Source: Cymodocea nodosa
Lineage: Eukaryota; Streptophyta; Magnoliopsida; Alismatales; Cymodoceaceae
Reading direction: 5' to 3'
DNA length: 64,000 bases
Assembly (NCBI GenBank): GCA_036874045.1
Contig: CM072341.1
Location: 12,412,501 to 12,476,500 of the forward strand
Shown: positions 11,186-35,689 of the stretch, piece after piece
How the letters are laid out: each line of letters opens with the position of its first letter
Position numbering within the stretch: the stretch's first letter is position 1
The notes under the pieces: generated by a model
Databases searched by the model: none
Seen by the model: only the letters and a program-made list of their open reading frames with translations
What the model was told of the DNA's origin: nothing
Made by a program: the position numbers and the translations under genes

Positions 11186-13375
11186 TGTTTAGAATGAAAA
11201 AATGCATAATATTAACGGTTAAATGATGGTTAATTGCATAATATTTAGCTTATCATATGAGAATTAAACCATTATGTTATAATTGCATTGTTATAAGTTT
11301 TAATTAAAAAATCTGCTTAATTTTGGGGAATTAATGTTAATTTAGTACATTTCTGAACTGTCGGTAAGTTGCAGGCTGTGAAATCCTTAAGTATCCAAAT
11401 TTTCTGATATTTCAGACAGTTATGTTTAACATACTGAATATGTATCGGATAGTTATGTTTAAATTATCGAACAGTTATGTTTTAAAAGAATATTTTATTA
11501 TTTCCTGAAGTACATGTGTCGAAACTATAATGCATGACTTAAGTGAACTTTCGGTGAGTTATCTATAACTATCCGAAATTGCAACTAGGCATCGGATAGT
11601 TATATGTGTAACTCTCCGAAATCACCTTTTATTTATAAAATAGCTGTGAACACGTGTCATGTTATGGGAAAATGACTTAAGTGGATTTTCGGTGAATTAT
11701 CTCTAATTATCTGAAATGCATTTAAGCATCGGATAGTTAGACCTGTAACTCTCTGAAATGTTTCTTTTATTATTAAACTGCTACTGACACTAGTCGAGAT
11801 CTGGTAGATTTACTTAAGTTATATATCGGTGAGTTATCTGTAACTATCTGAAATGCATCTAGGCATCAGATAGTTAAGTTTGTAAGTATCCAAAATACAC
11901 CTGAGCATCAGATAGTTAAATTTATGCACGTGTTTTATAGTTAAATCAACAAAGCAAGTTCGTTGAGTTATCTGTAACTCCACGGACTATTTATTTTCTA
12001 ATATGCCACTGTAGTGGTTGCAGAAACAGGACAGTTGGAAGGAAAAACCACAATCGCACGTATCGCGTAGAGAGAAGAAATCATCGTCGTTGATATGAAT
12101 GAAGGAAATCCAACCGACCATTCAAGCAGAAGCAGTTACCACTGAAGAAATATAAAAGAAAAGAAGAAAAAGAAGTAAAGGGTGTGTGATCGATGGGTGT
12201 GGCCAGTGTGTATAGAGGAGCACCGAACTTTCTACAGACAGTGTCGGTAATTCTCTGAAGTACCACACCAACCGTCATCACCACCACCATAATCACCAAC
12301 CATCGGAGGTCTGTAAGAATACTTTCCTGATATTGGGTCGATTTCGAGCCAAACATAGTGCCTGACAACCACTGTGAGGAGTGATCGCGCTGTGGGAAGG
12401 GAAGCCATTTTCACCAATCGTCGACTCATATCTCAAGAGATCGTAAAACTTCTAGCCTTGGTTTCAGGTTGATGTCTGCATGCTGAAGAAGAGATCATTT
12501 TGCAATTCTGGACTCACGATTCTATAGGGAGAGGAGACAGAATTGTAAGTGGTTTAATTTTCAGTGGTGTAATCGCGTCGCATATAGTGATGAAAGTATT
12601 TACTGTCGATTGAGATTACTTTACATTTCACCTTTCGCCCATTTCCATGTTCATATTAAAACAAAAATACCAAAACAATTTATCTGTGTTTGTATTTTGT
12701 ATTTGAGTGTTGTGTTGTATCGTGATTAATGTTATCTTTGTCAGTGTTGTGATTGTTTTATGTTTGTTTTAGTTTTATAGTTTACTGAAATTGGTTCGTT
12801 CAAAAGACTTAAAGATTTTAATGGTTATTGTTTGAATTATCTGAATGTTAGTATGCTTAATGATAAATCCAGTGTTTACTAACATTTAAGAGCTTAATTG
12901 ATGTTATTTACAATCTATGGAACCGCCCAATGGTTGGCCGAATTCCTCTGTAAATAGCAGTATTAAATTGGAAAGACAGGCTCGTGGAGTTAACTTAAGT
13001 CCACAAGGTTAGTCCGTTGAGTTAGCCATAACTCAACGAACTTTGTCCGTTGAGTTAACTGTAATTCAATGGAGAACTTATTGAATATATAAATTTGATT
13101 GTTCAAAACGGAACAGTTCTCAATTCTTAAGCAATTCCCTGTGGGATCGACTTGTATTTGCACACTAATATAGTAGACATTGTGCACTTGCAGTTAAAAT
13201 ACAAATTGGAATTAATATCTAATTTGTGTGAAAGGTTGTTTGTTTACTTCTACAAAAGGAATAGGCATAAAGATAAATTAACTAAGTAAAAACAGAAGTT
13301 AACAAATTCAAGTTTTTCTAGTGCGTTGCTGGAGATCCAAACAAGTTTTCTAGTGTCGTGTTGGGTAACCAAACA
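11186..13375 (+). repeat. 5' LTR of the Athila-like element
   Basis: Starts TGTTTAGAATG, ends AACCAAACA. U3 contains four to five imperfect modules, each pairing AACTATCCGAAAT-like and CATCGGATAGTT-like arms (11360-11930), then a TATA box at 12151. The 3' portion carries CGTTGAGTTA/TAACTCAACG palindromes (12980-13078). Small minus-strand frames inside it recur in the 3' LTR only because the LTRs are copies. Confidence 0.9.
12151..12158 (+). promoter_or_regulatory. LTR TATA box (TATAAAAG)
   Basis: GAAATATAAAAGAA is conserved at the matching place in all four LTRs of this family in the window (12151, 27375, about 28947, about 36260). This supports it as the core promoter, although the rest of the LTRs has diverged. 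Confidence 0.65.
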
Positions 13376-13382
13376 AGTTTTA

Positions 13383-13400
13383 TGGCGCCATTGCCGGGGA
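13383..13400 (+). other. Primer binding site complementary to tRNA-Asp
   Basis: TGGCGCCATTGCCGGGGA, seven bases after the 5' LTR end. It differs at one position from the TGGCGCCGTTGCCGGGGA site typical of Athila/Tat gypsy elements. This fixes the LTR boundary and the element's orientation. Confidence 0.93.
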
Positions 13401-13476
13401 ATTAATATAAGCAACTGTTAGAACTGTTTTGTTTTAATAGCTAGAGTGTTGTGTGTTTTCTTCTGTAATTGAGAAT

Positions 13477-16400
13477 ATGACATATGCTTATGCTCAAAGA
13501 TTTCTGAAACCTATAATTAGCATATGTGAATTCTGCAATTCTGAAGGTCATGTCATTTCTGACTGTTTGAAGCTGAGACGTTTGCAGATGGCTAAATCTC
13601 ATGAACAACAAATGAATTATCCTCAATATAATAGAGTCGAGTATGAGAATCCTATAGTTTACCCAACTGATGGTTAGTATAAAATGTGTAATATGTTGAG
13701 AGACACGAAAGTTTGGGATATGTATGATAGATTGGAGAATAGTATAGAGCAAAACCTAGACAAACTAGAATACTTTATGTGTCGGCAACAAGAAGTCAAC
13801 CAATTAAACTATAAGGAAGCATATTCAGAACCTAAAATGGATATAATTTACGAAACTGAAAAAACCATAATGAAAATTGATCAAAAATTGAATGCAATGA
13901 GATTAGATGATCTGGAAAGAAAATTAAAAGCATTGGACGAATATACAATGAAAATACAAGTTATGCAACAGAACAATGAAAATTATAATGTTATAGATTT
14001 ACATAATTTGCAAAATATATAGTAAAAAGAAAATATTAATGCAAGAGAATTTAAAGAATGCACTTTAAAACTAAAAATGATTGAAGATCATAATCACGAA
14101 AATGATATACAAAAACATCATGAGAGTAACGAAAATCTTGAAGATGTATGTGTAACATTAAGATCTGAAATTGATATACCACCAAGAACTCAAAATGAAA
14201 ATAATATGAAGATGGATAAGAGTAAAAATCAAAACGATAATGAAAATGTAATAGCTTAAAATCTAGAAATCACTAAAGAATAATCTGAATCTGCTAATGA
14301 AGTTAAAAATGATCAAACAAATCAAACGAAAGAAAAAGAATTTTTTAAATCACAATCTTTAGCACCCTATCCTGAAAGATTACAACAAACAATACTTGAA
14401 AAATAAGAAAAAATCAGAGAAATTTTTGAAAAAGTACAAGTTAACATTCCTTTGTTAGATCTATTGCAGAAAATGTCACCTTGTGCTAAATTTCTGAAGG
14501 ATTGGTGTACTAAGAAAAGAGAACGAAAGGTTCTTAGGAAGGTCTTTTAGCTGAGCAAAATAGTTCCCTATTTTTGCCACAAATTCCTAAAAAGTTATCT
14601 GATCCTGGAATCCCTGTTATATCATGTACCATAGGAAATATCATTCTAGAAAGAACCTTAATAGACTTAGGTGTAGGTATAAATGTTATGCCAAGTGATA
14701 TATTTGCATCCTTAGGATTAGAAGGCTTAACTCCTACTAGTACGGTTATTTAATTAGCTGATAGAAGTATAAGATTCCCTAGAGGAAAAATAGAGAATGT
14801 TTTAATTAAAATCAAAAACTTTATATATCCTATTGATATTGTAATTTTGGATTCCCAACAAATTAAGCATAAAAATAGTGATACATCTTTAATTTTGGGA
14901 AGGCCATTTTTAGCAACATCAGGGGCTGTTATAAATTGTAAAACTGGAGTAATAAAGTTATCATATGACAATGATGATACTCAATTAAATATTTTCAAAC
15001 CAGAAAGGTTTGAGGAGTTAGAAATGTCCTTACATACCATAGACTTTTTAGAGGATGAAGGAGATATGTTAGATGATGTGATTCAAGAAGAATTAAATAG
15101 GCAAATCAATTCTGAAACTTTAGAGGAAAGTGAAAGCATAAATATAGAAGGAGATTTGGAAGAAATTAATTTAGAAAATGATGATGTTCAATTAGGAGCT
15201 CTAGCTTCTGATGGGAAACATTTAAAATTAAAATATTTACCTCCTGAATTAACCTATATATTTCTGGAAGAGAAACGAACCTATCCAATCATTATTGCTT
15301 CAGATTTAAAAGAGGATCAAATAGCTAAATTAATAGATGTAGTGAAAAGTTATAAAGAAGCAATAGGATGGACTATGATTGATATAAAAGGGTTAAGTTC
15401 AACTTTATGCTGTCACCACATATATTTAGAAGAAAATGCTAAACCTGTTAGAATTTCTAAGAGGAGATTAAATCCAAACCTTAAAGAAGTAGTTAGGAAG
15501 GAAATAGTGAAATGGTTAGATAATGACATAATTTATCCGATTTCTGATATCTCATGGGTTAGTCCAATCCATGTAGTTCCCAAGAAATCAGGATTAATAG
15601 TTATTAGGAATGAAAGTCAAGACGTGATACCTACTAGAATTCAATCAAGCTGGAGAGTATGTATAGACTATAGAAAGCTGAATGTTGTGACTAGGAAAGA
15701 TCATTTTCCTTTACATTTTATAGATCAAATGCTGGAAAGATTAGTAGGGCAAAAATATTTTTGTTTCCTAGACGAGTATTCAGGTTATAATCAAATTCCA
15801 GTAGCATTGGAGGATCAAGAGAAAACAACTTTCACTTGTCCTAATGGAACTTATGCTTTTAAGAGAATGTCATTCAGACTATGCAATGCACTAGCCACCT
15901 TTCAAAGGTGTATGCAAGGCATATTTACTAGAATGACTGAAGATTTTTTAGAAATATTTATGGATGATTTTACTGTATATGGCAACTCATATGAAGTTTG
16001 TTTAAAAAATTTAGACCTAATATTAAAACGTTGTGTGGAAAAAAATCTAGTTTTAAATTGGGAAAAATGTCACTTCATGGTTAAACAAGGAATAGTTTTA
16101 GGGCATGTTATTTCTAAGAAAGGGTTGGAAGTAGATAAAGCTAAAATAGAAGTAATTTCTAATCTACCAGAACTTAAATAAGTAAAAGATATTAGATCAT
16201 TTCTAGGACATGCTGGTTTTTATAGAAGATTTATTAAAAACTTTAGCAAAATAGTTAGACCTTTAACTAATCTATTAAAAGATGTTCCATTTAACTTTGA
16301 TAAAAATTGCAAGGAAGCATTTTTCAAACTTAAAACTAACTTAATTTCAACTCCTATAATTCAAGCACCTGATTAGAGCCATCCATTTGAATTAATGTGT

Positions 16401-18121
16401 GATACATCTGATTTTGCTGTAGGAGCAATGTTGGGATAGAAGATAGAAAAATCTCCTAAAGTGATTTATTATGCAAGCAAAACCTTAAATGATGCTCAAG
16501 TTAATTACACAACTACTAAAAAAGAACTATTAACTATTGTGTTTGCCTTAGAAAAGTTTAGATCATATCTGATTGGAGCTAAAGTAATAGTATACACGGA
16601 TCATTCAGCTTTAAAACAACTAATAAAAAAAAAGAAACTAAGTCTAGATTGATCTGATGGATATTATTATTACAAGAATTTGATCTAGAAATTAAAGATA
16701 AAAAAGGTTGTGAGAATGTAGTAGTGGATCATTTATCAAGATTACAAATAGAAAAATCAAATATTGAAATTAAGGATAATTTTCCTGATGAACAATTAAT
16801 GACCATCAACATAATACCTTGGTATGCAGACATAGTTAATTACTTAGTTATTGGTTTAACACCTAAGGATTGGAATAGACAAGATAAGAAATTCTTTTTC
16901 TCAAGAGTAAAATATTACTATTGGGAAGACCCATACTTAATTTAAGAAATGTCCTGATCTGGTTTTAAAGAGGTGTGTTCTAGAAACTGAATATCCGAGT
17001 ATATTGTCTTTTTGTCATGACCAAGCTTGTGGAGGGCATTTTGGTTCAGGGAAAACTGTTGCAAAAATTCTACAATGTGGATTTTATTGGCCAACACTAT
17101 TCAAAGATGCTCATAAATATTGCTTAAATTGTTTAAGATGTCAACAAATATGAAGAATATCAAAGAGGAATATGATGCCTCTTAATCCCATTGTTGAGGT
17201 TGAAATCTTTGATATGTGGGGAATAGATTTTATGGGTTCATTTCCTATGTCTAATCAATTTAATTACATATTGTTGGGGGTGGATTATGTATCTAAATGG
17301 ATAGAAGCTATTCCTACAAAAACTAATGACAACAAAGTGGTAATACAATTTATAAGAACCAATATATTTGCTAGATTTGGAATACCTAAAGCTATTATTA
17401 GTGATAGAGGAGCTCAATTCTGTAATAGAAGTTTTGAAGCCTTAATGAAGAAATATGGAGTAAACCACAAAATTGCAACATCATATCATCCGTAAACAAG
17501 TGGACAAGTAGAAAGTGCAAACAAACAAATTAAGTTAATCTTAGAAAAAGTAGTAAATCCTACTAGAACAGATTGGGCTAATAGATTGATAGATGCACTT
17601 TGGGCTTATAGAACTGCTTATAAGACAAGCTTAGGTATGTCACCTTTTAGGCTAGTATATGGAAAAAGTTGTCATTTACCAGCTAAAATAGAACATAAAG
17701 CTTATTAGGCATTAAAAACTCTAAATACTAATTTAAATCAAGCTTTTGAAAATAGGAAAATGTAATTAATTGAATTAAAAGAATTTAGAAATGAAGCTTA
17801 TTCGAAGATTGTAAGAGAAAAAGAGAAAATGAAATTCTGGCATGATAGGAAAATTATTCCAAAAAGCTTTGAAATAGGACAAGAAATATATCTTTATATG
17901 GCTAGACTCCATAACCATCCAGGAAAATTAAGATCTAGATGGGTAGGACCTTACATAGTTTGAAATATTTATCCTTATGGAGTATTGAGATTGAAAATCC
18001 TCAAAATCAGAATATATTTAAAGTAAATGGACAAAGACTTAGACCTATTCTGAAAATACCAAAAAGTTCTTTTGGAATTATAGAAGAAGTCAGAGTAGAG
18101 GACTACTTGAGCTTTACTTAG
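13477..18121 (+). pseudogene. Athila-like pol with N-terminal zinc knuckle (PR, RT, RNase H, integrase), decayed
   Basis: The ATG at 13477 begins a frame with a CX2CX4HX4C knuckle (CEFCNSEGHVISDC, about 13534-13575) followed by a lysine/glutamate-rich coiled region to about 14350. Protease lies at 14560-14990 (LIDLGVGINVMP, then LILGRPFLATSGA). RT is at 15560-16150 with WRVCIDYRKLN, PFGLSNA-type FRLCNALATFQ and the active-site FMDD. RNase H is at 16380-16720 (VIYYASKTLNDAQ). Integrase is at 16990-17990 with the HHCC finger (CHDQACGGHFG...CLNCLRCQQ) and D,D,E catalytic residues ([30 protein letters not shown]). There are about ten in-frame stops and at least two frameshifts; the longest open piece is 14847-16181. 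There is no capsid domain in front of it: only 76 bp separate the PBS from the ATG. Confidence 0.9.
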
Positions 18122-18428
18122 TAAGAAATCAGTTTTTGTTTTATGTTTACATATAAAAAAAAAATTTATAAAATATAAAAATTATTGCGGTTTAATCGAC
18201 CGGATCCATCGGTATGACTGGAACATAAAAATATCTATATTAATTTTTAGTAAAAAAAAAAATTTTGGTTTTACCGAAACATAGTATCGGTTCAACCGGT
18301 AAAAAAATTAAAAAAATTAGGTCTGACCGAAACATAGTATCGGTTAAACCAGTAAAAAAAAAAAAGAAAAATTATTATCTTAAGTATTTTTATTTTATTT
18401 TATTTATTATATCTATTTGTACGGGAAG

Positions 18429-18523
18429 TCCGTTGAGTTACGCTTAACTCAACGAGCTTACTCCGTTGAGTCTTGAGTTAGTCAACGAGCTTATTCCGTT
18501 GAGTTAACTGTAACTCAACGGAG
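18429..18523. repeat. Palindrome array between pol and ORF2
   Basis: Three successive CGTTGAG/CTCAACG hairpins. The first has 10-bp arms (18431-18440 and 18445-18454, loop CGCT). The last has 11-bp perfect arms CCGTTGAGTTA (18496-18506) and TAACTCAACGG (18511-18521, loop ACTG). The same unit occurs in the LTRs and between the later ORFs. Confidence 0.92.
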
Positions 18524-18703
18524 TACTGTAGCTAAGACCGCAGATAAGAGAGCAATAGTTGGTTCGGGAAATGACCCGATTACCCGCCTAAACTTAGGGC
18601 TTATTTAAACTAAAACCTAGGGTTTTGAGGGCATTATCCGACAAACCATTTAGAATTTAGAACAGTAGAGATCAGAGCGATTCTGTGTCGTTGTGTAACT
18701 CCA

Positions 18704-20972
18704 CGATGAGGGAGATGACACTTGAGTTCTGGGAAGATGCAGTGGACATAACACAGTTTCTGAAAGTGTCAGACGATTGACACACACGGTAGAAGATTCG
18801 GAACATGACAAGAGAAAAAGAGCTACAAAAGGTAGAATCAGAACTTTTCAACTTAAGGAAATTTTTGGTTGATTTGGGTATACAAACACCCCAAATAGTA
18901 GAAACAAAAATAAAAGTAGTGACAGAAATTGCTTTAAGCAAAGAAAGAAAAATAAGGCCAAACAATGAAGTAGCCCTAAAACTAATCCAACGCAAAGCCA
19001 GATTATGGTTCAAAAGGCGCATTGCTGGTCGTGCAAGGGGTGCAATAAGGCGGCAACAATAAGCAGAGGAAGAACAGGAGGAGCCGACTACTGAAAGACC
19101 TATTCCTAAGGAACAGCAGTCAGGACCTTCAGTTCCATCATTTAAGCCGTTAACACGAGTAGAAATGTTGGGGCCTTCGACTAAAGAAGAATTAAAAGAA
19201 TTTCAAGGACTAGTTCAAGTTGGAAGAAACCAAGGGGAACTAGAAGATTTAGTAGTAGCCAAAGCACATCTGGTGTTTAATGCACTATGCAAAAAGAGGG
19301 CTGCAGAGAAATTGCAAGCCCAATATAAAATTAAAGTGGAACAACATTGAGAAGCTATTGCCAGAATTGCTGTCAGATTTGCTGCAAAAGAAGCTGAAGC
19401 TGGTCCTTCGAGACCAACAATTATTGAAAAAATTAAACAGGAAGAGCCAGTACCTGTGGCTCAAAGGTGTGCAAGCCTTTGTTTTTAGATTTAATCTTAG
19501 AAGAAGAAGAGGAAGACTAGGCACAATTAATCACACGAAGGAAAGGAAAAGAGATAGTGCTTGAATGTCAAAAGGAGATTAAATCTGAAGTACCAATATC
19601 AACAGGGTCTATGGAGCCAATTTTTATAAACTTGCTATTCGATTCTGAGGAGGAGCAAGAGCAGCAGCAGCAAGAGCAAAGAAAAGAAGAAAATCAGGCT
19701 GGAATTCAAGAGCAAAGAGAAGATGAAAAATAGGTTGAAATTAGTTTGCAGCCTATACAAGAAAAAAAAATAGAAATTAGGGTAGAAACTGAATTGCCCG
19801 TGACTCCATCCTAATCTGCCACAGAATTAGAAAGAACAGTGACAGAGCAGATTGGTAGTTAGGAGGAAGAAGAAAGAACAGAAAGTGAAAAAGAAGCTGA
19901 ACGAAGCCATTTGGACAAAAATGACTTTGCAGATTCCACTGAAGAGCAAGAAACTCTTCAGCAATTTATGGAAAGAATTCAAGACAGAGTGGAGAGTTCT
20001 GCTGGCTCTCTACCACAGACAAAAGTAGAAGCAAAAATTCAGGAATCTGCAAAATATGTTCAACTTCAGCATATGGAAGAGGAAGATCAAGAACAAACCT
20101 CTTTAGAATAACAAAGTCACATTCCTAACCCGACTAAAGCAACAGTTTTGAATGAAGTACATTTTTGGAGTTAGGAAGTATATCATAAATACCAAGAAAT
20201 TAGGGGTTATGATATTATATACAGTAGACCAGTAAATTGGGATGGAATGCAAGAAATCAAAGAATTATTTGAATTCCAAGGTCTACTGAATTTTATTTCT
20301 AAAGAAAGAGGGCATGTAGTATATGAGAATCTAGTGTCCTGTTTTTATGCAAATTTAAGAGAAGAAGGAAAATTAATTTCCAACGTGGAGGAAGCAGATG
20401 TACAGATAACACCTAAGCTTCTCCATAACATTTTTAGGTTAAAAAATGAAGGATAAGAAATTTTGGAAAGTATAACTACCGTTGAATGGACAGAACAGGA
20501 AATCAAGGACAGTTTAGCTACCAATCCTGGTGTGCCTTTATTAAATAGACTGAAGCATTTAAATGGTAAAGCACACATGATAGCCAACATTTTGATTAAG
20601 AATGTCTATCAACAACAAGACCATGACATAGAATTGAGTCAATTTGTCAAATGAGCCACGTTTGCAGTTGTAAATAAAATTCAAATAAATTGGTCTGTAG
20701 TTTTTATCTCCAAGCTGAGAACAGTAAAGAAGAAATTAATTTATGGAGATTTGATTCCACTACTGATGGTGGATTGTATCGATTTCACTAAATGGGCATA
20801 AAAAAGGATCAAATCAAGAACCATTTCAGTGAAAGAGTATAGAAATTTTGTAGCTGCATAGATTGCTGTACCTTCTAGAGGCAATACAAGAGTTGTAGAA
20901 AGAATTAATCAATTAGAGCAACAATTAGAAAAACTTCAGAAGGAAGTAGATGAACTTAGGAATAGAGGCTAA
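18704..20972 (+). pseudogene. ORF2: Glu/Gln-rich plant-transposon-type protein, decayed
   Basis: From about 18805 the frame encodes a basic helical segment (LIQRKARLWFKRRIAGRARG near residue 55, IQ-motif-like), then a long Glu/Gln-rich linker (to about 20110). Next comes a folded-looking domain at 20190-20780 with GYDIIYSRPVNWDGM, GHVVYENLVSCFYANLREEG and VEEADVQITPKLLHNIF. This layout resembles the uncharacterised putative plant transposon protein domain found as an extra ORF in many plant LTR elements. It ends in a heptad coiled coil (RINQLEQQLEKLQKEVDEL) and a TAA at 20970. About nine in-frame stops and one frameshift are present. Function unknown; it sits where other Athila elements carry an env-like ORF. 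Confidence 0.65.
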
Positions 20973-21400
20973 TTGTATTGTTCGTCTATTTTTACATATT
21001 TGTATGAAAAATATCTGATTTGATTGTACTGTAATTGATTCATATGAATGAATATAAATTTTCAAATATACTTTTCATGTGTGTTTAGAATGTGGAATGA
21101 ATGGAATATATTGAATGTTATATAATTTGTGGAACATTATGAATGAATGTTTAACAGATTTACAATTTGCTAAATGACAAGATAGATGCTTGAAAATTTC
21201 TGCATGTTGCAAGGTAAAATGTAAATTCTGCATAACATAAAATGACCTGCAAGTTAAATATTTATATAATGTTTAGATTTAAACGAATTTTGATTAGAAT
21301 GATGCATTAATGACATAGATTTAACTTTATTTTAGTAGCAGAATGCAGAGAAAAAAAATAGAGAGGTACTTACTAAGAGTAAACTTAGAAGTTGCCAAGT
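20973..21400. other. AT-rich spacer downstream of ORF2, no gene
   Basis: No reading frame or motif found. It leads into the second palindrome array. Confidence 0.5.
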
Positions 21401-21576
21401 GTTAACTCAACGAAGTAAGTTCGTTGAGTTAAACTTAACTCCACGAGGTTAGTAATATAATATAAGGTCACTCCGTTGAGTTACAGATAACTCAACGAGG
21501 TTAGTCCGTGGAGTTAGCAACAGTAACCAACTTTATTCCGTTGAGTTATCTGTAACTCAATGAGGTTAGTTCGTGG
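21401..21576. repeat. Palindrome array between ORF2 and gag
   Basis: Several copies of the CGTTGAGTTA/TAACTCAACG hairpin, one perfect with 10-bp arms at 21474-21483 and 21488-21497 (loop CAGA), plus degenerate CGTGGAGTTA variants. Confidence 0.9.
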
Positions 21577-21693
21577 ATTAAGCAGAACGGTTATTCTTTT
21601 AACCACGAACGAAACTTCGTCGGTTTAGCGGTTACCAAAATTTGAAATTAATAATGGTACACGTACCCATAAAAATAGGAACCACGATGCACG

Positions 21694-21894
21694 TTGCAAA
21701 ACATGTTCTTGCAACGAGATTTATTCACTTTATGGATGTGCATTATATATATAAAACATAATGTTATTTACAAGTTACCAACACTTTTAAAAGTAAGGAG
21801 AAAAGCGTTGGGGGAACTGGAAGGAGAAGCAGCTGATTCGACTTCATCTGTCAACAAATATTTACTGAATGGAAAGCTTCAGACTGGTATGTAA
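21694..21894 (+). other. Possible short 5' exon of gag
   Basis: An open frame ending NKYLLNGKLQTG runs into a strong donor-like site (CAGACTG then GTATGTAAT, GT at 21887-21888). A CTCTTAG acceptor-like site follows near 21940, before the gag ATG. This would fit a spliced leader or N-terminal exon, but the piece has no recognised domain and its apparent start codon is not ATG. Confidence 0.25.
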
Positions 21895-22072
21895 TTAATC
21901 TTCTGCTATTTATTTATGAGCACATGGACTCATTCTCTTAGCACTAAACGATTAGTAAGAACACCTACCCAGGAATATTCAACATAGAGATGTACTGAAA
22001 CATTTTTCTGAATTGGACTTTAACAAAATTCTTTGGGGTGTAGCTAACCTTTCTTTAAAAGAGAACGTAAAG

Positions 22073-23260
22073 ATGGCTGCTCCAGTAGAAAAACCATTAG
22101 GAGAAATTCTGTATCTTGAATTAGTTGATGAAACTTCATGTATTCGATTGCCAAACTTTGAGGGAGATAGGTTTGAACTGAAATCTAATTATATTAGTCA
22201 ATTGCCACATTTTCATGGATTAGAAAGAGAGGATGTTTATTATTTCCTTAGAGAATTTAATGAAGTTTGTCAAATGATGAAAATGCCGAACATGAGTATA
22301 GATGCTATTAAACTTAGATATATCTTTTTTGCTTTAAAAGGCACAGCTAAGAGATGGTTATATACTCTGTCGCCCGATTCAATTTCTGCATGGACCGAAT
22401 TTTACTCTATTTTTCTGGAAAAATATTATCCAATACATCAAATGATTAAAAAGAAAAAAGAAATATTAATGTGTAGCCAAAAACAAGGTGAATCATTTTG
22501 GAAATATTTTGAAAGATTTAAAGATTTACTGACTCAATGTCCACATCATGCAATGAGTAAAGCACAATTAATAGGTATAATTTATGAAGGCATAGATGTT
22601 TCAACGAAATCTTTATTAGAATCTACTTGTCAAAATGGATTTTTGAAACTATGTAGTGAAGAAGCATGGGCATATTTAGAAAACTTTGCAAAAAGAACTG
22701 CACAATGGGAAAACTCGGCTGAAGCTATTACAGATAAAAGAATATTGCCAAGAGGAATGCGTGAAATAGATTCAAGTACTATGCTTGAAGTGAAATTAAC
22801 TAAATTAACAAAGAAAATAGAAGAGTTATCATTAAATCAAAAGCTAGCAGAAAAGAATGCAAACATTAATGATTTAGATATTATTTATGCTAGAAACCAG
22901 AAAGATAACTTTGGAAATTCTTATAATCCTAATTGGAGAAATCACCCGAATTTATCTTGGAGAAACAACAATTTCTAGGGAGGAGAAAATGTAAACGAGA
23001 AGAATATAAGTTATGAAGCATTACTTGAACAAGGATCTAGAATAGAGAAATTAGAAAAGATAATCCAACAATTAAACAATCGTCTGGATTTTGTATTTAG
23101 AAATGCTGCAATTCAAAATCAGAATAGAAATATACCACTTAGATAGAAGGAATCAATGGAAGTTAGACCTACTAGAGGATTGTCAGTACAAGCAATACCT
23201 AACCCTGTCAATAGAACTGTTAATGAAATTGATACCTCTTCTAGGAGGATAGCTGAATGA
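22073..23260 (+). pseudogene. gag: Athila-like gag (capsid), downstream of pol
   Basis: The ATG at 22073 (AAGATGGC context) opens a 396-codon frame with the retrotransposon gag capsid fold: FLREFNEVCQMM, AIKLRYIFFALKGTAKRWLY, SAWTEFYSIFLEKYYP, GESFWKYFERFKDLLTQCPHH and EEAWAYLENFA. A coiled segment follows (LTKLTKKIEELSLNQ), then the Athila-type NPNWRNHPNLSWRN box and a second coil. In typical Athila gag a zinc knuckle sits between the first coil and the WRNHP box; here that stretch has none, and a knuckle is found instead at the start of pol, 8.5 kb upstream. The frame is interrupted only by two TAG codons (22976 and one near 23143) and ends in TGA at 23258. It lies between two palindrome arrays. 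Confidence 0.88.
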
Positions 23261-23316
23261 AGCAGTATAATTGAAGCAACTATCTGTATATATATGTTTA
23301 TTTATAGTTAATAGTA

Positions 23317-23380
23317 TCGTAGAGTTAGTCCTTAACTCAACGAACTTAGTCTGTTGAGTTATGCCCTAACTCCACGAGGG
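23317..23380. repeat. Palindrome array between gag and the F-box-like ORF
   Basis: Two hairpin units (CGTAGAGTTA...TAACTCAACGA and TGTTGAGTTA...TAACTCCACGA), 57 bp after the gag stop and 75 bp before the next ATG. Confidence 0.88.
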
Positions 23381-23406
23381 TGTGCAGTAGTTATGTTAAT
23401 TTTTAT

Positions 23407-23436
23407 CTCTGCTAAATTTTTGTTTGTGTTATACAG
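23407..23436 (+). promoter_or_regulatory. Candidate 3' splice site just upstream of the F-box-like ORF
   Basis: A branch-like CTGCTAAA, then TTTTTGTTTGTGTTATACAG (AG at 23435-23436), lies 18 bp before the ATG at 23455. It would let the last ORF be made from a spliced subgenomic RNA, as is known for downstream genes of retroviruses and some env-bearing plant elements. The donor is not identified. Confidence 0.4.
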
Positions 23437-23454
23437 AATCGACAAATAGAATTG

Positions 23455-24576
23455 ATGCAATTATCGTTGGATGCACTAAGGGAAGTACTGAGTAACTTGT
23501 TAGCTAAAGATCTGTATAGGCTGTGCTGTGTATCAAAAGAAATTAAAGACTGTATTGAAGAAAAATATTTTCATGGACTACAAGCTGCAAAAATGACTAA
23601 GATTAGAGATGGATTCATATGGAAGTCATTTAATCGTAGTTCAATTACCCATGAATATCTGAATATGGAAGAAACTACTGGAATTCCACCCAATACATTA
23701 GAAGGAATAGATCATGTTATGGGGATAGATGAAGGATTAATCATATATAGACCAAGGTATGCAAGTCTATTACCTAATATTTTGATAAGAAATCCTATAA
23801 CAAGAGAAGAATGGAATATAGGAAGACCTAATAGATATGAAGTACCAACTGTAAATTGTGGGCCAGCTTTAATATTTTCTGATAAAAATTCTACCATTCC
23901 TGAAAAATTATATTATTGGAGACCTACAGGAAATTGGGATAAAGATTTTTGCTTAAGTGTGTATAATTTTCTGAATAGATCTTTGACTGAAAATATTATG
24001 ATATATCTAGGACATAAATTATTAATTAACAACATGCATGTCATACTTGATGGATATATATATCTTGTCACAGATATATCAGTTGCATTTAGATCTGATT
24101 TATACATAGTGAGTATAGACAATTATGATGAATATATAGAAATTTTACCTATACCGAGAGAAATAGTTAAACCACCATCTGCAGAATTTGATAAAATTCA
24201 AATAGGAATGTAGTATAATGAATATGATGATCCTACTTTATGTCTGATAAGATGGTGGGATGAATTGATAAAATTTCAAATATAGAATATGAAAGACATA
24301 AATGAATGGAAGTGGGAAGAGGAATATATTGAAATAGATGTAGAAATAGAAACTGCTACATTACCTTGGAACCGAAAAGGATCCCTTTCTGCATTTCATT
24401 TCATTAATGGTAATACACTTGTATTTAGCATTGATAATATATTACAAGTTTACAAATTAAGAAGGAACAAGAATGGCATTAAAACAGAATTAATAGCAAG
24501 AAGAATTGTGCCTAAAAAGTTTGCTTGGACTGACACGTTTATTCCATTTGTTTCTACTTTTCAATCATATTCTTAA
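23455..24576 (+). pseudogene. F-box-like protein carried by the retrotransposon
   Basis: A 373-codon frame with an N-terminal F-box-like motif (residues about 2-40: LSLDALREVLSNLLAKDLYR then LCCVSKEIKDCIEEKY), matching the Leu-Pro-x-Asp/Leu...RxxCVSKxWxxxI pattern of plant F-box proteins. The remainder resembles the F-box-associated beta-rich C-terminal half of plant F-box proteins (LIRNPITREEWNIGRP, residues about 103-118; repeated Trp/Tyr strands). F-box proteins recruit substrates to SCF ubiquitin ligases through SKP1. Only two defects are visible, both TAG (codons 253 and 277), and the frame resumes unchanged after each. No gag or pol motif is present. The ORF lies inside the element between a palindrome array and the 3' conserved region, in the env position. 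Best read as a captured host gene; a chance-like divergent env cannot be excluded. Confidence 0.7.
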
Positions 24577-26402
24577 GTTGTGATTTTGTGTGTTTAATAT
24601 TGTGTGCCTTCTGCATTTATTTTTAGAAAAAAAAATGTTAGTTTTCATTTTATGTTATAAAAGAAAACAAAAACAAAATATCAATCCAGTTTATTGGTAT
24701 CTGTTTTGGGAAACCAACTGGCTTGCTTGTAAGCCACCAAAGGTGTAGGAGCCTAGGTTCCACAAAAAACACTAATTTATCAATATCTGTTAAATGTTAT
24801 TTTGTTATATATTCTGCTTTTATTTGTGAATGAAAAGTTTTTTAGAATCAAAAAATCGGAATATGTAGAAGGAGATACAAACGAAACAAGGTATGTAATT
24901 GATTACTTATCCTGAATTTAGATTTAAACTCATTTGTTGAGTTAGGTGCTAAATCAACGAAACTGTATTCATGCTTACCACAATTATTGTACTTATTATC
25001 AAATCTTTTACATTGAGGACAATGCAAAATGTAGATATGGGGGGGAGGTAATTAAAGTAACAGCCATGTAAGTTTGTTAATTAAAGGAATTAAAATGGTA
25101 CTGCAAAGTTTTGTGGAAATTGAAAATTTTTATGAACTTGTTGTAACTATCTGATAATTGAGACTGTAAAATTTTTATAAACTGTAACTGTTTGACTGTT
25201 ATATTTAGAAGGCTATATAATATGCTATAGAATTTATTATTTATGCAAATCTAGATATAGTATTTTATGTTTTTTTTTTTTCTGAATTTTATGAGTTTAA
25301 CAGTTTCACGATTTTAAAATGAAATCAGAATGCTTAATGAAAAAAATTATCTGAAGTCTTGAAGGAGCGAAAATATGAATTCTAGATTAAATGAAACAAT
25401 ATGATTAAAGATACATTTAATTTGACTGATTAAACTTGTAGAATGATTTATGTGTAGATCTTATTAAACTACATAAAAAGTATGAGCTTATTGTTATGGA
25501 TTCATATTTTTAGTAAATGATAGAAGCATGACTATATGAGATTAGTGTTTACTACATCTGTATTAATGAAATACGTACATATACAGTATGTGATTAATTT
25601 TTTTGTTTTGTAATATGAAAAGAAAAAAAGAAGAAAAAAAAAGAAAAGAAAGAAAGAAAAAAAAAGAAGAAAAAAAAATAAAATTTTGAGAGTTTATTGA
25701 CTTGTTTGATCACGAGCCTTTTGTACTTGTGCAGATAGGTATGTAAGGATTGTTGACTTGAAAAATGACTCTTGAAATCTGGCAACCTAAGATCCTGATC
25801 AGATCTGGGATTGTTGACTGAAAGCTTGTTACATGGGTACATTAGAAAGCTCTTGTATGATTCAAGCTTGTCAAATTAACTTTTAAAGTACAAAAATACA
25901 TATACTGTTCTGAAAAGATACAAGTGTTTTGTGAAATACAGATATCTTATGAATCGAGTATACTTTCTGTTATCTAGAATTACTGAAATATGAATCTAGA
26001 ATTGACTTTTAAAGTTGTTTAATGGAGATACAATTCTTTATTCTACTTGTCTTAATCATAATGAATTGGATTGTACTTTGATTCATATGTTGTTGAAATT
26101 TCTTCTAGAAATCTTATTGGAAAATTCAGGATGACAGATGATGAAAAGAAGAACAAACGATAATATAATTAACACCTATGTGATGATGATATACTTTGTA
26201 TGTAATTTGCATATATTCTAAGTATATTTGCAGGTTGAAGAGGAGAAAACAATATTACTGAAACATACAGAATATCTATATAACAATACTAGTTCTTATG
26301 CTGAACAGAAAAAAAAAATGGGGAAGAATTAATTCTAGCACTTTTAGAAGGACCCATTAATGAGATCTTAGTTTGCTAAGGGACTAACAAAATTTAGGTA
26401 TG
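24577..26402. other. 3' non-coding region of the Athila-like element
   Basis: No gene. Contains one more degenerate palindrome (TTGTTGAGTTAGG...TAAATCAACGA, near 24928-24960), the conserved block at 25013, an A/G-only tract at 25614-25680 and a second purine run (A10 then TGGGGAAGAA) near 26308. Confidence 0.6.
25013..25047 (+). promoter_or_regulatory. Conserved ATTGAGGACAATG...GGGGGGGAGG block
   Basis: ATTGAGGACAATG followed about 15 bp later by GGGGGGGAGG. I recall a near-identical arrangement downstream of the coding region in many Athila/Tat elements; its role is unknown. It supports the lineage call and marks the end of the coding part. Confidence 0.6.
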
Positions 26403-26409: not shown

Positions 26410-28597
26410 TGTTTAGAATGAAAAAGTACATAATATTAACAGTTAAATGATGGTTAATTGCATAATATTTAGCTTATCATATGAGAATTAAACCATTATG
26501 TTATAATTGCACTGTTATAAGCTTTAATTAAAGAATTTGCTTAATTTTGGGGAATTAATGTTAATTTAGTACATTTTTGAACTGTCGGTAAGTTGCAGGC
26601 TGTGAAACCCTTAAGTATCCAAATTTTCTGATATTTCGGACAGTTATGTTTAACATACCGAACATGTATCGGATAGTTATGTTTAAATTACCAAATAATT
26701 ATGTTTTAAAAGAATATTTTATTATTTCCTAAAGTACACGTGTCGAAACTATAATACATGACTTAAGTGAACTTTCGGTGAGTTATCTATAACTATCCGA
26801 AATTGCAGCTAGGCATCGAATAGTTATATGTGTAACTCTCTGAAATCTCCTTTTATTTATAAAATAGCTATGAACACGTGTCATGTTCTGGGAAAGTGAC
26901 TTAAGTGGATTTTCGGTGAGTTATCTATAACTATCCGAAATACATCTGAGCATCGGATAGTTAGACCTGTAACTCTCCGAAATGTTTCTTTTATTATTAA
27001 ACTGCTGCTGACACGTGTCAAGATCTGGTAGATTTACTTAAGTTATATATCGGTGAGTTATCTATAACTATCCGAAATACATCTAGGCATCAGATAGTTA
27101 AGTTTGTAAGTATCTGAAATGCACCTGAGCATCGGATAGTTAAATTTATGCACGTGTTTTATAGTTAAATCAACGAAGCAAGTCCATTGAGTTATTTGTA
27201 ACTCCACGAACTATTTATTTTCAAATATGCCACTATAGCGGTTGTAGAAACAAGACAGTTGGAAGGAAAAACCACGATCGCATGTATCGCGCAGAGAGAA
27301 GAAATCATCATCATTGATATGAATGAAGGAAATCCAACCAACCATTCAAGCAGAAGCAGTTACCACTGAAGAAATATAAAAGAAAAGAAGAAAAAGAAGT
27401 AAAGGGTGTGTGATCGATGGGTGTGGCCAATGTGTACAGAGGAGGAGCATTGAGCTTTCTGCAGATAGTGTTGGCAATTCTCTGAAGTACCACACCAATC
27501 GTCATCACCACCACCATAATCACCAACCATCAGAGATTTGTGAGAATACTTTCCTGATGTTAGGTCGATTTCGAGCCAAACATAGTGCCTGACAACCACT
27601 GTGAGGAGTGATCACGTCGCGGGAAGGGAAGCCATTTTCACCAAGCGCCGATTCATATCTCAGGAGATCGTAAAGCTTCTAGCCTTGGTTTCGGGTTGAT
27701 GCCTGTATACTGAAGAGGAGATCATTTTGCAATTTTGGACTCGCGATTCTATAGGGAGAGGAGACAGAATTTTCAGTAGTGTAATCGCGTCGCATGTAGT
27801 GATGGAAGTATTTACTATCGACTAAGATTACTTTACATTTCACCTTTCGCCCATTTCCATGTTCATATTAAAACAAAAATACCAAAAATAATTTATTTGT
27901 GTTTGTATTTTATATTTGAGTATTGTGTTGTTTGTGTTGTATCGTGATTAGTGTTATCTTTGTCAGTGTTGTGATTGCTTTATGTTTGTTTTAGTTTTAC
28001 AGTTTACTGAAATTGGTTCGTTCAAAAGACTTAAAGATTTTAATGGTTACTGTTTGAATTATCTAAATGTTAGTATGCTTAATGATAAATCCAGTGTTTA
28101 CTAACATTTAAGAGCTTAATTGATGTTATTTACAATCTATAGAATTGCCCAATGGTTGGCTGAATTCCTCTATAAATAGCAGTATTAAATTGGAAAGATA
28201 GGCTCGTGGAGTTAACTTAAGTCAATGAGGTTAGTCCGTTGAGTTAGCCATAACTCAACGAACTTTGTCCATTGAGTTAATTGTAATTCAACGGAGAGCT
28301 TATTGAATATGTAAATTTGATTGTTCAAAATGGAATAGTTCTCAATTCTTAAGCAATTCCCTGTGGGATCGACCTGTACTTGCACACTAATACAATAGAC
28401 ACTGTGCACTTGCAGTTAAAATACAAATTGGAATTAATATCTAATTTGTGTGAAAGGTTGTTTATTTACTTCTACAAAAGGAATAGGCATAAAGATAAAT
28501 TAACTAAGTAAAAATAGAAGTTAACAAATCCAAGTTTTTATGGTGCGTTGCTGAAGATCCAAACAAGTTTTCTGGTGTCGTGTTGGGTAACCAAACA
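26410..28597 (+). repeat. 3' LTR of the Athila-like element
   Basis: 2188 bp, matching the 5' LTR end to end (TGTTTAG...CCAAACA), with the TATAAAAG box at 27375 and the same U3 modules and palindromes (27176-27210, 28203-28300). Confidence 0.9.
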
Positions 28598-30138
28598 ACA
28601 TGTTCAACTTGTTAAGTTAACATAACTATATGTGTTGAGTTACTTGAATATATACCAAGGTAACATGTTGTGTTAGTATTATAAGTTTAATAGTTATCCC
28701 TTTATTGCACATGTTTTATGGTTAAGTTAGTATAACTATACGTGTTGAGTTACACTAACTCCATGGACCAGTTACTTTCTAACATGCCACTGTAGCAGTT
28801 GCAGAAATAGGAAATTCGAAGGAAAACCACAATTGCACGTATCACGTAGGAATTAACTTGTGGAATGAAGAAGAACACACCATCATTGATACGAATGAAG
28901 GAAATCCAACTAATCATTTAGGTAGAAGTAGTTACTATTGAAAGAAATATAAAAGAAGAGGAGAAAGACGAAGAAGGTGTGTGTGAAGGTGGAGGACCAT
29001 GCTAATTGTAGGAAACGTCGGAAGTTCCTTGAAGCTCCACAACACCACCAAAATCACCAACCATCAGAGGTCTGTGAGGATACTTTCTGGATGTTGGGTC
29101 GATTCCAAGCCAAACATGGTGACTAACAACCATTATGAGGAGTGATCGCATCGTAGGAAGGGAATCCATTTTTACAAAGCACCGACTCATATCTCAGGAG
29201 ATCGTAAAGCTTCTAGCCTTGGTTTCGGGTTGATGCCAATATACTGAAAAGGAGATCAACTTACAAGTCTTGATTTGTGATTCTATAGGGAGAGGAGGCG
29301 TGACTATAAGTGATTAAGTTTTCAGTGGTGTAATCATATCGCATGTAGTGACAGAAGTTCTTATTATCGATAGAGAATTTTTACATTTCATATTTCATTC
29401 AACTTCAGGAACATATCAAAACAAAAATACCAAAAAGAACTAATTATTTGTGTTTACATTTAGTATTAATGTGTTGTATTGTTTGTTTTGTATCGTGATT
29501 AATATTATCATTATTAGTATTATGAATGTTTTATGTTTAGTTGATTTAGAAAATAGAAAATAGTTTTATAGATTACTGAAATTGATTCGTACAGAATACT
29601 AAAAAATCTTAATGGTTACTATTTGAAGTATCTGAATGTTAGTATTGATTAATGATAAATCTTAGATTAACTAACATTAAAAAGCTTAATTGAGGTTATT
29701 TACATTCTGTGGAACCACCCAATGGATGACCAAATTCCTCATGAATAGCAATATTTAACTAGAAGTTACTAGGTAGGCTCATGAAGTTAACTTAAGTCCA
29801 CGAGGATAGTCCATTGAGTTAACCGTAACTCCACGAACTAAGTCTATTGAGTTAATTGTAAATCAACAGAGAGCTTAATTGAATACATATAAACTCTAAT
29901 ATAGAAAATCAAAATAGTACATAATTCTTACTTGATCTTTGTGGGATCAACCTGTACTTGCACACAAATACAATATACACTGTGCACTTGCAGTTAAAAA
30001 TACAAATTAGACTTAATATCTAATTTGTGTGAAAAGTTGTTTGTTTACCCTAAAAGAATTTATTAATATATGCATAAAAACAAATCAAACAAGTTCTCTA
30101 AATAGACAAGTTCTGATTTAACTTTTCACAACCATACA
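28598..30138 (+). mobile_element. Right part of the Athila-like solo LTR
   Basis: Continues the LTR interrupted at 11185. It shares with the inner LTRs the GCCACTGTAGCAGTTGCAG block, the TATA box near 28947, the CGTTGAGTTA-type palindromes at 29790-29875 and the CTTGCAGTTAAA-ATACAAATT block. It ends ACAACCATACA, after which CTAGC (30139-30143) pairs with CTAAC at 10558-10562. Confidence 0.78.
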
Positions 30139-31988: not shown

Positions 31989-32533
31989 ATCTCTTCTTTT
32001 TTGATGATGATAAAAACATATTAAATCAATTAACACATTTTATTTTTGAACAAACAACTTAAACAAATAAAGCTCATAACTATATAACAAACTTGGATAG
32101 TTATCAACAACATAACACTTGCAAGTAGAAGTACTGATAGAAAATATAACTTAAACTTCTCCTAGTAACTATTCGAGTTTAGTAGATAGATATGCTAAAA
32201 AGTCAAACAATTAAGTGTAACTATTCAAGTTTTCTATAGGGAATAATCAAATAATAAAAATAGAAAAACTCAACTATAAAGATAACTATATGAGTTTGTA
32301 GTAGAGTTATGTGCATAATAGATCAACAAACTCAAAAGATTATCTATAACTTAATCGAAATGCCAAATCTAAAAATGATAGAGGTTATAAACACACTTTA
32401 AAACTATGAACCACTGTCCCCTTACATTAATGCATTAGTAATAACATTAAAAGCATAACTAACTTCTAATGGGTTGCCAAGTCCCATAAAAATGAGACAG
32501 CTAAACTAATTTTGGCTAACTTAAGTGGGTTGC
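31989..32533 (-). other. Internal 3' end of the outer copia element, no gene
   Basis: Polypurine side followed by AT-rich sequence with scattered AACTAT/AGTTAT words. No coding similarity recognised. A new plus-strand copia LTR starts at 32534. Confidence 0.45.
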
Positions 32534-33679
32534 TGTTAGGAATTTTATTTTGATGAAGTGTATTTCACTTAGTCTAAAAAATAGATCTAAATAAGTCTAA
32601 GTGTAAGTCTTTACCTTAGTTGTATAATTAGACATCAATAGATTTTTAAAAGTCATATAGTTATAGTTAATGTTTCGAGTTAGTTGAATAGTTATGTTAA
32701 AAAATCATATAATTATAGTTATCTATATGTGTGTTTCTAAATGTCTTAAGTTTTCACATGTTTTCCATATACGTTCTTTAAAGAAATCGAAAAGTCAGAT
32801 AACTATTTGAGTTTTTACACATTGATTAGATAACTATTAAAGTTTTATAAGTGACTAGCGTAACATTAAGATTTCTATTTAAGTCAAATGTTTTACAAGT
32901 GAAAAACTCAAAGAGTTATTGAATAAATGTTTAAGTTTTACAAGCACTAAATGATAAATATTCAACTAAAGTAATGACTTAAGAGATAAACTCTACAGTT
33001 ATTTAGAAAGAGCACTCTCAATGGATCTACAATAGGATAACATGGGCATCATCCAAGAACATGATGAATGTGAATATTTCAAAATTCAAAAGAACACGAG
33101 ATCATGGAATTATGGAAAAAGTAGATCAACATGTTAAGCGTGGAACTCCAGTTCGACTACTATAAATAAAGGATACAAGCTGCACTTCAATCATCCTAAT
33201 TCAATACAGAGGAATCTCAATCCAATATAGAGGAATCCAAACTAGAATACAATCCAAAGCATTTAGAGAGAAAGTGTTTCCATCTAGTAAGAGAGAAAGC
33301 TTTCATACACACCAACAACCACTTACATCACATGAGATCAATCTAAAGAGCTAAAGATTAGAAGGAATCAAAGCTAAAGGTCAACAAGGAAATCAGAAGA
33401 GGAAAAACTTGGAGAAAGAAAGGTAAAAGGTTTCATGTAGGAAATTAGAAAAGTCAAAAGGTGTAAGTTCTCTGTGTTGTTATTGTTATTACTTAAGGGT
33501 AAATTCTAAAAATAATATAAATTGTACCCTATCATGTAATAAAGTGTAAAAATATTGTGCATAATAAATAAAGTTTTTAGAAAAGATTTTTACATTGTAT
33601 TTTGTATGTTTTGATTACATAAATTTTAAGTCACAATTCACCCTCCTCTTGTGAAGCTATTTCTAATCCTTCATTTTCA
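32534..33679 (+). mobile_element. 5' LTR of a copia element (1146 bp)
   Basis: TGTTAGGAATTTTATTTTGA at the start, TTTTCA at the end, TATAAATA at 33161 and the AATTCACCCTCCTCTTGTG tail. It is homologous to the minus-strand LTRs at 6632-7722 and 51727-52800. A primer site follows directly. Confidence 0.85.
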
Positions 33680-33680
33680 A

Positions 33681-33693
33681 TTGGTATTAGGGC
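33681..33693 (+). other. Primer binding site (initiator tRNA-Met type)
   Basis: TTGGTATTAGGGC, differing slightly from the TTGGTATCAGAGC typical of copia elements, one base after the LTR. Confidence 0.75.
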
Positions 33694-33735
33694 ATTAGGT
33701 TTATTTAGTAAAGGGTTTAACAATTTTAAATAGAA

Positions 33736-35689
33736 ATGGCTTTTAACAACAATTTTTTATTTAAAGGGTAGAACTTAAATAGGCCACCACTATTTGACAA
33801 TTCTAATTATGCTTATTGGAAACGTAGAATGACTATGTTTATAAAATCAATAGATTTTAAATTATAGAGCATAGTTAGTAAATCATTTATTATTTTAAAT
33901 ATCTCTCACACTACTTGGTGTTGTTGAGAGAAAGAATAAGTCAATCCAAGAAATGGAAATGACCATGATACTCGAAAATATGATTACACAAAATTTTTAG
34001 GTTGAAGTAGTTAATATTACATGTTATATTATTAGTAGCGTTCACCTAAGGCCAATATTAGATAAAACTCCTTTTGAAATTTGGTTTGGCAAAATTCATA
34101 AAATTTCGTATGTGAAAGCATTTGGCTATAAATGTTATATTTTGAATACTAGTGAAAAATGAGATAAATTTAGAGCCAAATCAGATGAAAGAGTTTTTGT
34201 TAGTTATTTATTTAGGAGTAAAGTCTACCAGATTTATAATAAATCAACAAAAACAATCTAAGAATATCTACATGTTAAATTTAATGAAAATTCTTATTTA
34301 GATTTAAATAAATTTCGTGAGGATAGTGACAGTGAACCTATTCAACTAGAATTTTTACCTGAAATAAATGAAAATGTTGTAGATAAGGTTGAAGATGATG
34401 CATTACCTAATGAAATAGCTAGGTCTTGGTGTTATTCTTCATCTCACCCATAGACCAAGTTATAGGAGATATAAATGAGGGTGTTCAAACTAGATCATTT
34501 AATCTGTGTGCAAAACAAGTTTTTGTTTCTCTAATAGAGCCTAAAATTATTGATGATGCATTATTTAATGAATTCTAGTTTGAAGTTATGTAAGATGAAC
34601 TTAATCAATTCATTAGAAATGATATATAGGATCTAGTTCCACTACTTAAAAATCAATCTATGATTGGTACATGGTGGGTGTTTAATAACAAAATAGATGA
34701 GACTGATCAAATTATAAAAAATAAAGCTAGATTAGTTGCTCAAAATTTTAAATAAGAGGAGGGCATTGATTTTGATGAAACATATGCTCTTATTGCTAGA
34801 TTAGAATCTATTAGAATTTTATTGTCTTTTGCATGTTACATAAATATTAAATTGTTTCAAATGAATGTTAAAAGTGCTTTTCTTGATAGTTTTATAAAAG
34901 AAGAAGTATATATAAAATAAACTCTTGGTTTTGAAAATTTTAAAAATCCTAATTATGTTTTTAAATTAAAGAAAACTTTATATGGTTTAAAACAAGCTCC
35001 AAGATTATGGTATAAATGATTATCTAATTTTCTTATTGAACAAGGATATGTTTTGGGTAAAGCTGACCATACTTTGTTTATTAAGAAAATAAACAATGAT
35101 ATTTTAGTTATTCAAATAGACATAGATGATATAATTTTTGAATCAACTAATGAAAAATTATTTAGGGAATTCTCAAATGACATGACTAGTCAATTTGAGA
35201 TGAGTATAATGGGAGAGCTTTCCTATTTCTTAGGCTTATAGATTAAGCAAGGTAAAAATAGAATTTTTATTAATTAGGAAAAGTATACTCATAACTTACA
35301 AAAAAGATTTGTTTTTAGTGAAACTAAAGTTATGAATATGCTTATGAGAACTACTATAAAATTAGATAGAGATGAGCATGAAAAATCAGTAGATATCAAA
35401 AATTATAGAAGTATGATAGACTCTTTATTGTATTTGATAATAAGTAAACTTGATATTATATTTAGTGTTTGTTTATGTGCTAGATATCAGTTTAATCCTA
35501 AAAAGTCACATCTTGTTGTTGTTAAAAGAATATTTAGATATCTAAGTGGAACTGCAAATTTTGGCTTATTTTATTCTAAGAATAGCTCATTAGACCTAAT
35601 AGGATATAATGATGCTAATTTTACAAGTTGTAAATATGAGAGAAAGAGTACAAGTGACACTTGTCAATTATTAGAAAATTCTTTAGTGT
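33736..35689 (+). pseudogene. Copia gag-pol relic with internal deletion (SIRE/Maximus-like)
   Basis: Gag starts at ATG 33736 (LNRPPLFDNSNYAYWKRRM, FIKSIDF). At about 33925 it jumps straight into the C-terminal integrase (VERKNRSIQEMEMTMI, near 33930), so most of gag, protease and the integrase core are deleted. Integrase tail (ISYVKAFGYKCYILNT) follows. RT is at 34620-35290 ([36 protein letters not shown], active-site IDIDD), then RNase H at 35400-35689 (SMIDSLLYL, KRIFRYLSGTANFGLFYSK). Many TAG/TAA stops. RNase H is cut at 35689 by an Athila-like solo LTR and resumes briefly at 37277. Confidence 0.85.

Follow-up and report, generated by a model that had tools for sequence, protein, structure and literature searches.

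The stretch examined here comprises 64,000 nucleotides of Cymodocea nodosa contig CM072341.1 (assembly GCA_036874045.1, positions 12,412,501 to 12,476,500, forward strand; hereafter the window, with positions counted from its first letter), and it contains a 17.4-kb Ty3/gypsy long terminal repeat (LTR) retrotransposon of Athila-like type that carries an F-box gene downstream of pol. The features of the element are collected in the table. Within its first open reading frame (ORF1), the reverse transcriptase (RT; PF00078, within 14847-16178) is followed by the integrase (INT; PF17921 and PF00665). Over 2177 aligned sites, 127 transitions and 9 transversions separate the two LTRs, and we interpret this transition-rich divergence as the pattern typical for decay of methylated C. 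The sequences flanking the element, GCACG and ACATG, are alike at 3 of 5 positions, both differences being transitions. An older LTR of a related subfamily lies at 10563-11158 and 28701-30048, apparently split by the insertion of the element, which we interpret as having inserted within it.

Table. Features of the Athila-like element in the window.
Feature	Positions	Strand	Remarks
5' LTR (TG...CA)	11186..13375	+	about 93% identical to 3' LTR; ends read directly
Primer-binding-like site	13383..13400	+	7 bases past 5' LTR
ORF1	13477..18118	+	CCHC zinc knuckle first, then protease-like, RT, RNase H, integrase; several stops/frameshifts in window copy
env-like region, broken	18793..20969	+	one piece matches PF20167 weakly (16.4 bits; cut-off 45)
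33-bp palindromic repeat array	21402..21586	+	upstream of capsid gene
Further arrays	18423-18529, 23318-23380, 24935-24960; in LTRs 12974-13080, 28196-28302		
TATA-like box (putative)	21748..21760	+	upstream of intron; read from sequence
GT-AG intron holding whole capsid gene	21887..23436	+	ranked candidate sites; exact loss in copies L084 and L040
gag capsid (CA) gene, relocated	22073..22975	+	PF03732, E 1e-18; frame runs on to about 23257 with two stops
F-box gene	23455..24576	+	two in-frame stops in window copy; profile match, codon usage, family-wide copies
F-box domain	23458..23571	+	PF00646, residues 2-39
3' LTR	26410..28597	+	pairs with 5' LTR

A profile search with the first 252 codons of 23455-24576 matched PF00646 at 27.2 bits (cut-off 20.5; E 3.3e-6), in agreement with an earlier note on this DNA, made from the sequence alone, which had recognized an F-box pattern at the start of this frame. 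With a codon model trained on pol and CA pieces of the same element, the frame outscored every one of 1000 shuffles on either side of the first stop (32.8 upstream of it, 14.9 downstream), and the other five frames over the same positions scored negative. The GC content by codon position (0.373/0.324/0.196) was near the values of CA and RT. Synonymous codon use correlated with that of CA, RT, and INT (r 0.86-0.89), as compared to -0.30 for one host exon, which is GC-rich and a weak proxy for host genes. When expectations were scaled to the decay rate between the LTRs, the F-box frame had 2 stops against 2.27 expected; the corresponding figures were 1 (1.10 expected) in INT, 2 (0.63) in the CA tail, 0 (2.03) in CA, and 0 (2.11) in RT, none of them significantly off. 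Because its stop count is close to that expected from LTR decay, the F-box frame was probably open at the time of insertion. The F-box had no match among NCBIfam profiles, sequence searches of the PDB yielded no relative (the lone row, E 1.6, being noise), and IMG/VR scans were negative; a search of 5.8 billion proteins with the damaged window piece, which yielded 254 candidates, gave no relative at E<=1. No kelch or LRR match was listed in the profile search of nine copies in which the frame is open.

The gene is not confined to the window. Of 6025 candidates in the host genome (374.6 Mb), 150 were scored as matches; almost all of these span the whole 252-residue query, and identity, the window itself excepted, is 86-91%. 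Presence of the ORF in other family copies was among the checks that the earlier note had asked for. Sixty of the 149 other copies (rows 2-61 of the match list) were fetched: the CA gene lies upstream of the F-box gene in 58, several with frameshifts or stops, the C-terminal part of the F-box protein is present in 59, and a complete open F-box frame of 374-396 codons is retained in nine. All nine open copies matched PF00646 at 34.2-42.7 bits, so that the domain stands above the curated cut-off in these as well as in the window copy. A genome search with PF00646 itself returned 150 scored matches of 4219 candidates; among 12 loci examined, 11 were of this element type and one (L079) was an apparent host F-box gene. 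In each of the three copies checked, one flank carried the family LTR at the distance expected (3' of L018, 5' of L044, and 3' of L059). The F-box gene is therefore a family-wide component and no one-copy capture. The piece fetched for the 5' side of L059 (L073) also holds the 3' end of another family copy, a nested or tandem arrangement.

The layout of gag in the window departs from that of related elements. Proteins of the usual layout were split by the alignment: the CA part of P0002 (from Tasmannia) fell on 22091-22828 and its protease part on 14580-15077, and the alignments of P0012 and P0013 were divided in the same manner. The zinc knuckle CEFCNSEGHVISDC opens ORF1 (start of ORF1 at 13477-13674, knuckle at 13525; zf-CCHC 17.8 bits, below the cut-off of 20.8), whereas 22073-23455 contains no such knuckle in any of its three forward frames. 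The exact knuckle pattern occurs in 4 of 14 gag relatives, in one protein together with CA. The usual Athila-like order, in which capsid and knuckle both precede the protease, was accordingly not observed, CA lying at about 22 kb and the protease region at 14.5 kb. L044 (piece L071) is colinear with the window through its 5' LTR and on into ORF1, which there too starts at the knuckle; this is one of three cases, since the two other 5' pieces fell short of ORF1 or did not show it. As read from the window, and from the order of CA and F-box genes in 58 of the 60 copies, gag is reorganized, with the knuckle kept at the start of ORF1 and CA placed 3' of pol, downstream of the env-like region. According to the earlier note, the F-box gene follows gag and precedes the element's 3' end, in the env position. 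Its location after gag and downstream of pol is correct, but the gag capsid gene is itself abnormally 3', and there is no simple replacement of env, as an env-like region with weak profile support persists at 18.8-21.0 kb.

The whole CA gene lies in a GT-AG intron of 1,550 nt. A rough splice scan of 13.4 kb, with weights set by ourselves and run before any spliced copies were known, ranked the donor at 21887 third and the acceptor at 23436 joint third; the acceptor had already been named by the earlier note as a 3' splice site 18 bp upstream of the ORF. Natural copies turned out to be joined exactly at this point. In L084, window-like sequence up to 21886 is joined directly to 23437, and L040 shares this junction except for a single base. 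Among the 60 copies, and allowing 6 mismatches of 24, the spliced junction was found in one (L040), the donor border in 53, and the acceptor border in 59. Ranked by similarity to L084, L040 takes no more than place 33 among 58 (93.06%; median 93.09%), so the two are not sister copies. Genome-wide, 198 sites matched the 31-base junction when 3 mismatches were allowed, as compared to none for a backwards control and 7e-5 expected by chance, and by eye the junction stood directly upstream in at least 6 of the 150 places with an F-box match. Spliced copies devoid of capsid are common, and one junction variant recurs in at least 20 places among the matches listed (198 in total), as if a lineage lacking CA through splicing had gone on to multiply as a non-autonomous element. 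Because the intron encloses the entire CA gene, one RNA can yield either a CA or an F-box message; judging from the natural spliced DNA copies, splicing exchanges the capsid for the F-box protein. The spliced loci retain upstream sequence to about 20427 (L084) and 19519 (L040), and their template was therefore longer than a transcript starting at the TATA-like box at 21.75 kb.

The gaps between these genes are marked by palindromic repeats. The motif CGTTGAGTTA/TAACTCAACG, with one mismatch allowed, has 19 occurrences in 13400-26400 where 0.78 would be expected; they form four clusters, located before the env-like region, before CA, before the F-box gene, and after it. The same motif is also present inside the LTR, ahead of a TATA-like string recognized by eye. 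Arrays, defined as at least two motif matches with up to 2 mismatches, precede CA in 52 of the 60 copies and separate it from the F-box gene in 59, and these two gaps held 405 and 240 matches, respectively, compared to 68 within both genes. RNA folding of six stretches gave z-scores of -6.5 to -4.6 in four and of -4.2 and -2.0 in the others. The arrays may serve as shared promoter elements or as binding sites like the targets of VANC proteins (PMC10398659, available part). Upstream of the intron, a TATA-like string was present in 51 of the 60 copies, and the box at 21.75 kb is a putative internal promoter.

The earlier note had also proposed dN/dS across copies as a check on function, and purifying selection was recovered in part of the comparisons. 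Differences within the family are mostly post-insertion decay, and the preferred test was a transversion-only omega of ten diverged copies (58-83% F-box amino-acid identity) against L044. It reached P < 0.001 in four of them: 0.33 in L076 (P 2e-5), 0.33 in L082 (P 1.8e-5), 0.34 in L080 (P 4.8e-4), and 0.45 in L075 (P 1.7e-4). The closer copies L018 and L059 gave 1.88 and 0.92, and the wrong frames of the F-box gene ranged from 0.62 to 3.93. L076 and L082 gave an omega of 0.16-0.17 for CA, whose wrong frames contained few changes and scattered from 0.23 to 2.23. When the analysis was restricted to variants present in a minimum of 2, 4, or 6 of 61 copies, the transversion-only omega was 0.57, 0.40, and 0.34, respectively (binomial P 0.014-0.018), and Fisher tests against the wrong frames gave 0.0025-0.013 in a sample biased by its protein-based choice; L040 and L057 were left out for CA in this test owing to gaps or stops. 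Stop variants among the shared ones (10, 3, and 1) were not clearly depleted. These data support purifying selection on the F-box frame, with a constraint weaker than that on CA. The F-box protein diverged faster than CA in several copies (in L077, 67% versus 88-91%), though not in L086 (80% versus 76-82%), the reference being L044 for the F-box and the window for CA. Two further measures were set aside. Ratios by the NG86 method against L044 (F-box 0.22-0.63, CA 0.12-0.48) were not used alone, as strong transition bias is estimated to lower the ratio in a neutral sequence. The comparison of shared with singleton nonsynonymous to synonymous ratios within the family was dropped because the wrong frames fall similarly, probably via recurrent loss of C at the same sites.

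Taken together, these observations are best explained by a reorganized Athila-like family with a splice switch between CA and an F-box accessory protein that is under selection and acts in an SCF (SKP1-cullin-F-box) ubiquitin ligase; we give this explanation as a whole a probability of about 0.72. The F-box gene would most likely be a resident accessory gene coding for an SCF-type substrate receptor. Unspliced RNA offers CA, and removal of 21887-23436, as seen in the natural spliced DNA copies, deletes CA and sets the F-box frame beside the leader. The product, a long-resident and selected accessory protein, would bind host SKP1, and its variable C-terminal half would bring a target to the SCF ligase. 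The likeliest targets would be a host factor restricting the element, for example part of the silencing machinery, or the Gag of the element itself. Silencing is a sensible starting assumption, but not more than that, because some parasites deploy F-box-type proteins of the P0 and p22 kind against it and because plants control AGO1 through the F-box protein FBW2 (PMC2914764, available part).

Several observations weigh against this explanation. In six of the ten diverged copies the test missed P 0.01, with omega of 0.59 in L085 (P 0.029), 0.45 in L078 (P 0.065), 0.67 in L077 (P 0.096), and 0.80 in L086 (P 0.31), and with no constraint visible in L081 (0.89, P 0.48) and L083 (1.15, P 0.77); moreover, L076 and L082 count as a single line of evidence because they are near-identical to each other. 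The 60 copies were picked by protein similarity to the window, which favors conserved frames. In the template RNA the F-box frame would lie far from the 5' end, so that efficient translation would need the putative internal promoter. The F-box-associated C-terminal region described by the earlier note had no FBA match in the profile search of the window copy; seven of the nine open copies matched FBA_1 within residues 201-335 (E 0.0012 to 0.069), all below the cut-off, and two had no match. Single-sequence structure models were unusable, with a predicted local distance difference test score (pLDDT) of 33 for 252 aa, and of 74.8 for 52 aa that formed two helices and no F-box fold. Finally, the sequence retrieved 5' of L018 and 3' of L044 contained no second LTR, and that retrieved 5' of L059 shows LTR parts in both directions, perhaps a neighbor's.

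An origin by recent capture of a host F-box gene, carried as a passenger without function, is very improbable. Capture from the host had been assumed by the earlier note; no parent gene was found with a single host F-box gene compared, that of L079 (452-codon frame), which is unrelated to the element F-box (blastp E 0.41). A recent passenger is also at odds with a layout common to 58 of 60 copies and with copies down to 58% amino-acid identity, with the purifying selection in 4 of 10 comparisons, with the element-like codon usage, and with the lack of any relative of the window piece in the protein search. Still less credible is the idea that CA and the F-box gene form a second, nested element or a rearrangement of one copy. 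A gag gene 3' of pol is abnormal and would fit such an event, but no further LTR pair was seen in the internal region, L044 is colinear with the window into its knuckle-first ORF1, and the recurrence of the CA/F-box order refutes a one-copy rearrangement.

It is also conceivable, although unlikely, that the F-box protein controls the element itself, for instance by keeping its copy number low through degradation of Gag or Pol, a role like that of Ty1 p22/p18 with a different mechanism. CA and the F-box protein as alternative products of one RNA would be a natural site for a self-limiting switch, and Ty1 encodes its own restriction factor from a subgenomic transcript (PMC8458377, available part); the faster divergence of the F-box relative to CA in several copies, L086 excepted, fits a changing outside target better than a conserved target within the element. 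The selected accessory protein with an SCF role can be carried one step further, to a scenario that we offer tentatively and regard as rather less probable than not: the lineage would encode its own SCF receptor by the capsid/F-box splice switch, the receptor would remove a host silencing or defense factor, its C-terminal half would diversify in an arms race, and spliced RNA would found capsid-less lineages that need capsid in trans.

Comparison with known systems was based on the available parts of the papers cited. Like the Athila/Calypso group of Ty3/gypsy elements (PMC1142308), the element has RT before integrase, a CX2CX4HX4C knuckle, a primer-binding-like site near the LTR (5 bp after the LTR in a relative), a putative env-like region 3' of pol, and long TG...CA LTRs; unlike that group as described there, its CA is 3' of pol, split from the knuckle, and within an intron, and it has an extra F-box gene and repeat arrays common to the LTR and the gene gaps. 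Retand/Grande and the orchid 2-ODD elements likewise have a family-wide extra gene between pol and the 3' LTR (PMC7264820, PMC11963269, PMC9289625), and the extra domains named for them do not include F-box. In 25,565 consensus sequences from 121 angiosperms, 15 extra domains were reported (PMC9289625); the nine named are others, and the main text, as available, does not contain the term F-box. A flax copia LTR retrotransposon with an F-box coding gene is given as one example of gene capture (PMC5142383); it differs from the present family in being copia, and the available part says nothing of selection, splicing, or occurrence throughout a family. The term F-box does not occur in a 2026 gene-capture review (PMC13317346). 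A parasite-encoded F-box-type motif is shared with the silencing suppressors polerovirus P0 and crinivirus p22; the present protein differs in having a full F-box and a long C-terminal part and in residing in a genomic retrotransposon, and any suppression would be by analogy. The VANC anti-silencing proteins of VANDAL elements (PMC10398659) resemble it, by description only, as transposable element accessory proteins with family-specific non-coding repeats, but they bind DNA motifs and no F-box is stated. Nematode fusions of F-box with Tc1-mariner helix-turn-helix domains (PMC12062965) also join F-box and transposon, in the opposite direction, host genes having taken the transposon domain, and a TE-rich pine gene with an F-box is described as well (PMC7602945). 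In the openly licensed literature (subscription papers being outside this scope), neither a family-wide or selected retrotransposon F-box gene nor a capsid gene moved 3' of pol was found.

In plant retrotransposons, a recognizable domain is rare among accessory genes, and their function is a long-standing question; a selected, family-wide F-box gene would offer a testable biochemical handle through SKP1 binding, target, and ubiquitination. The split gag with its capsid/F-box splice switch would be an unusual answer to the Gag-to-Pol ratio, and the spliced genomic copies record RNA processing independently of RNA data.

The primer-binding-like site may correspond to the tRNA-Asp site of Athila/Calypso elements; a tRNA search within the window found none. 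A remnant related to the env-like region is located at 8306-8814 on the minus strand (tblastn E about 1e-5). Dispersed related repeats at 32531-35687, 44909-46994, 48621-52803, and 6631-7714 contain frames that by eye are Ty1/copia-like, and among them 48621-50393 and 50402-52180 form a tandem pair with 85.6% identity. At 60212-60762 there is a tandem duplication of 273 bp (99% identical), and a minus-strand exon-like frame at 5086-5820 may resemble the N-terminus of a Pumilio protein.
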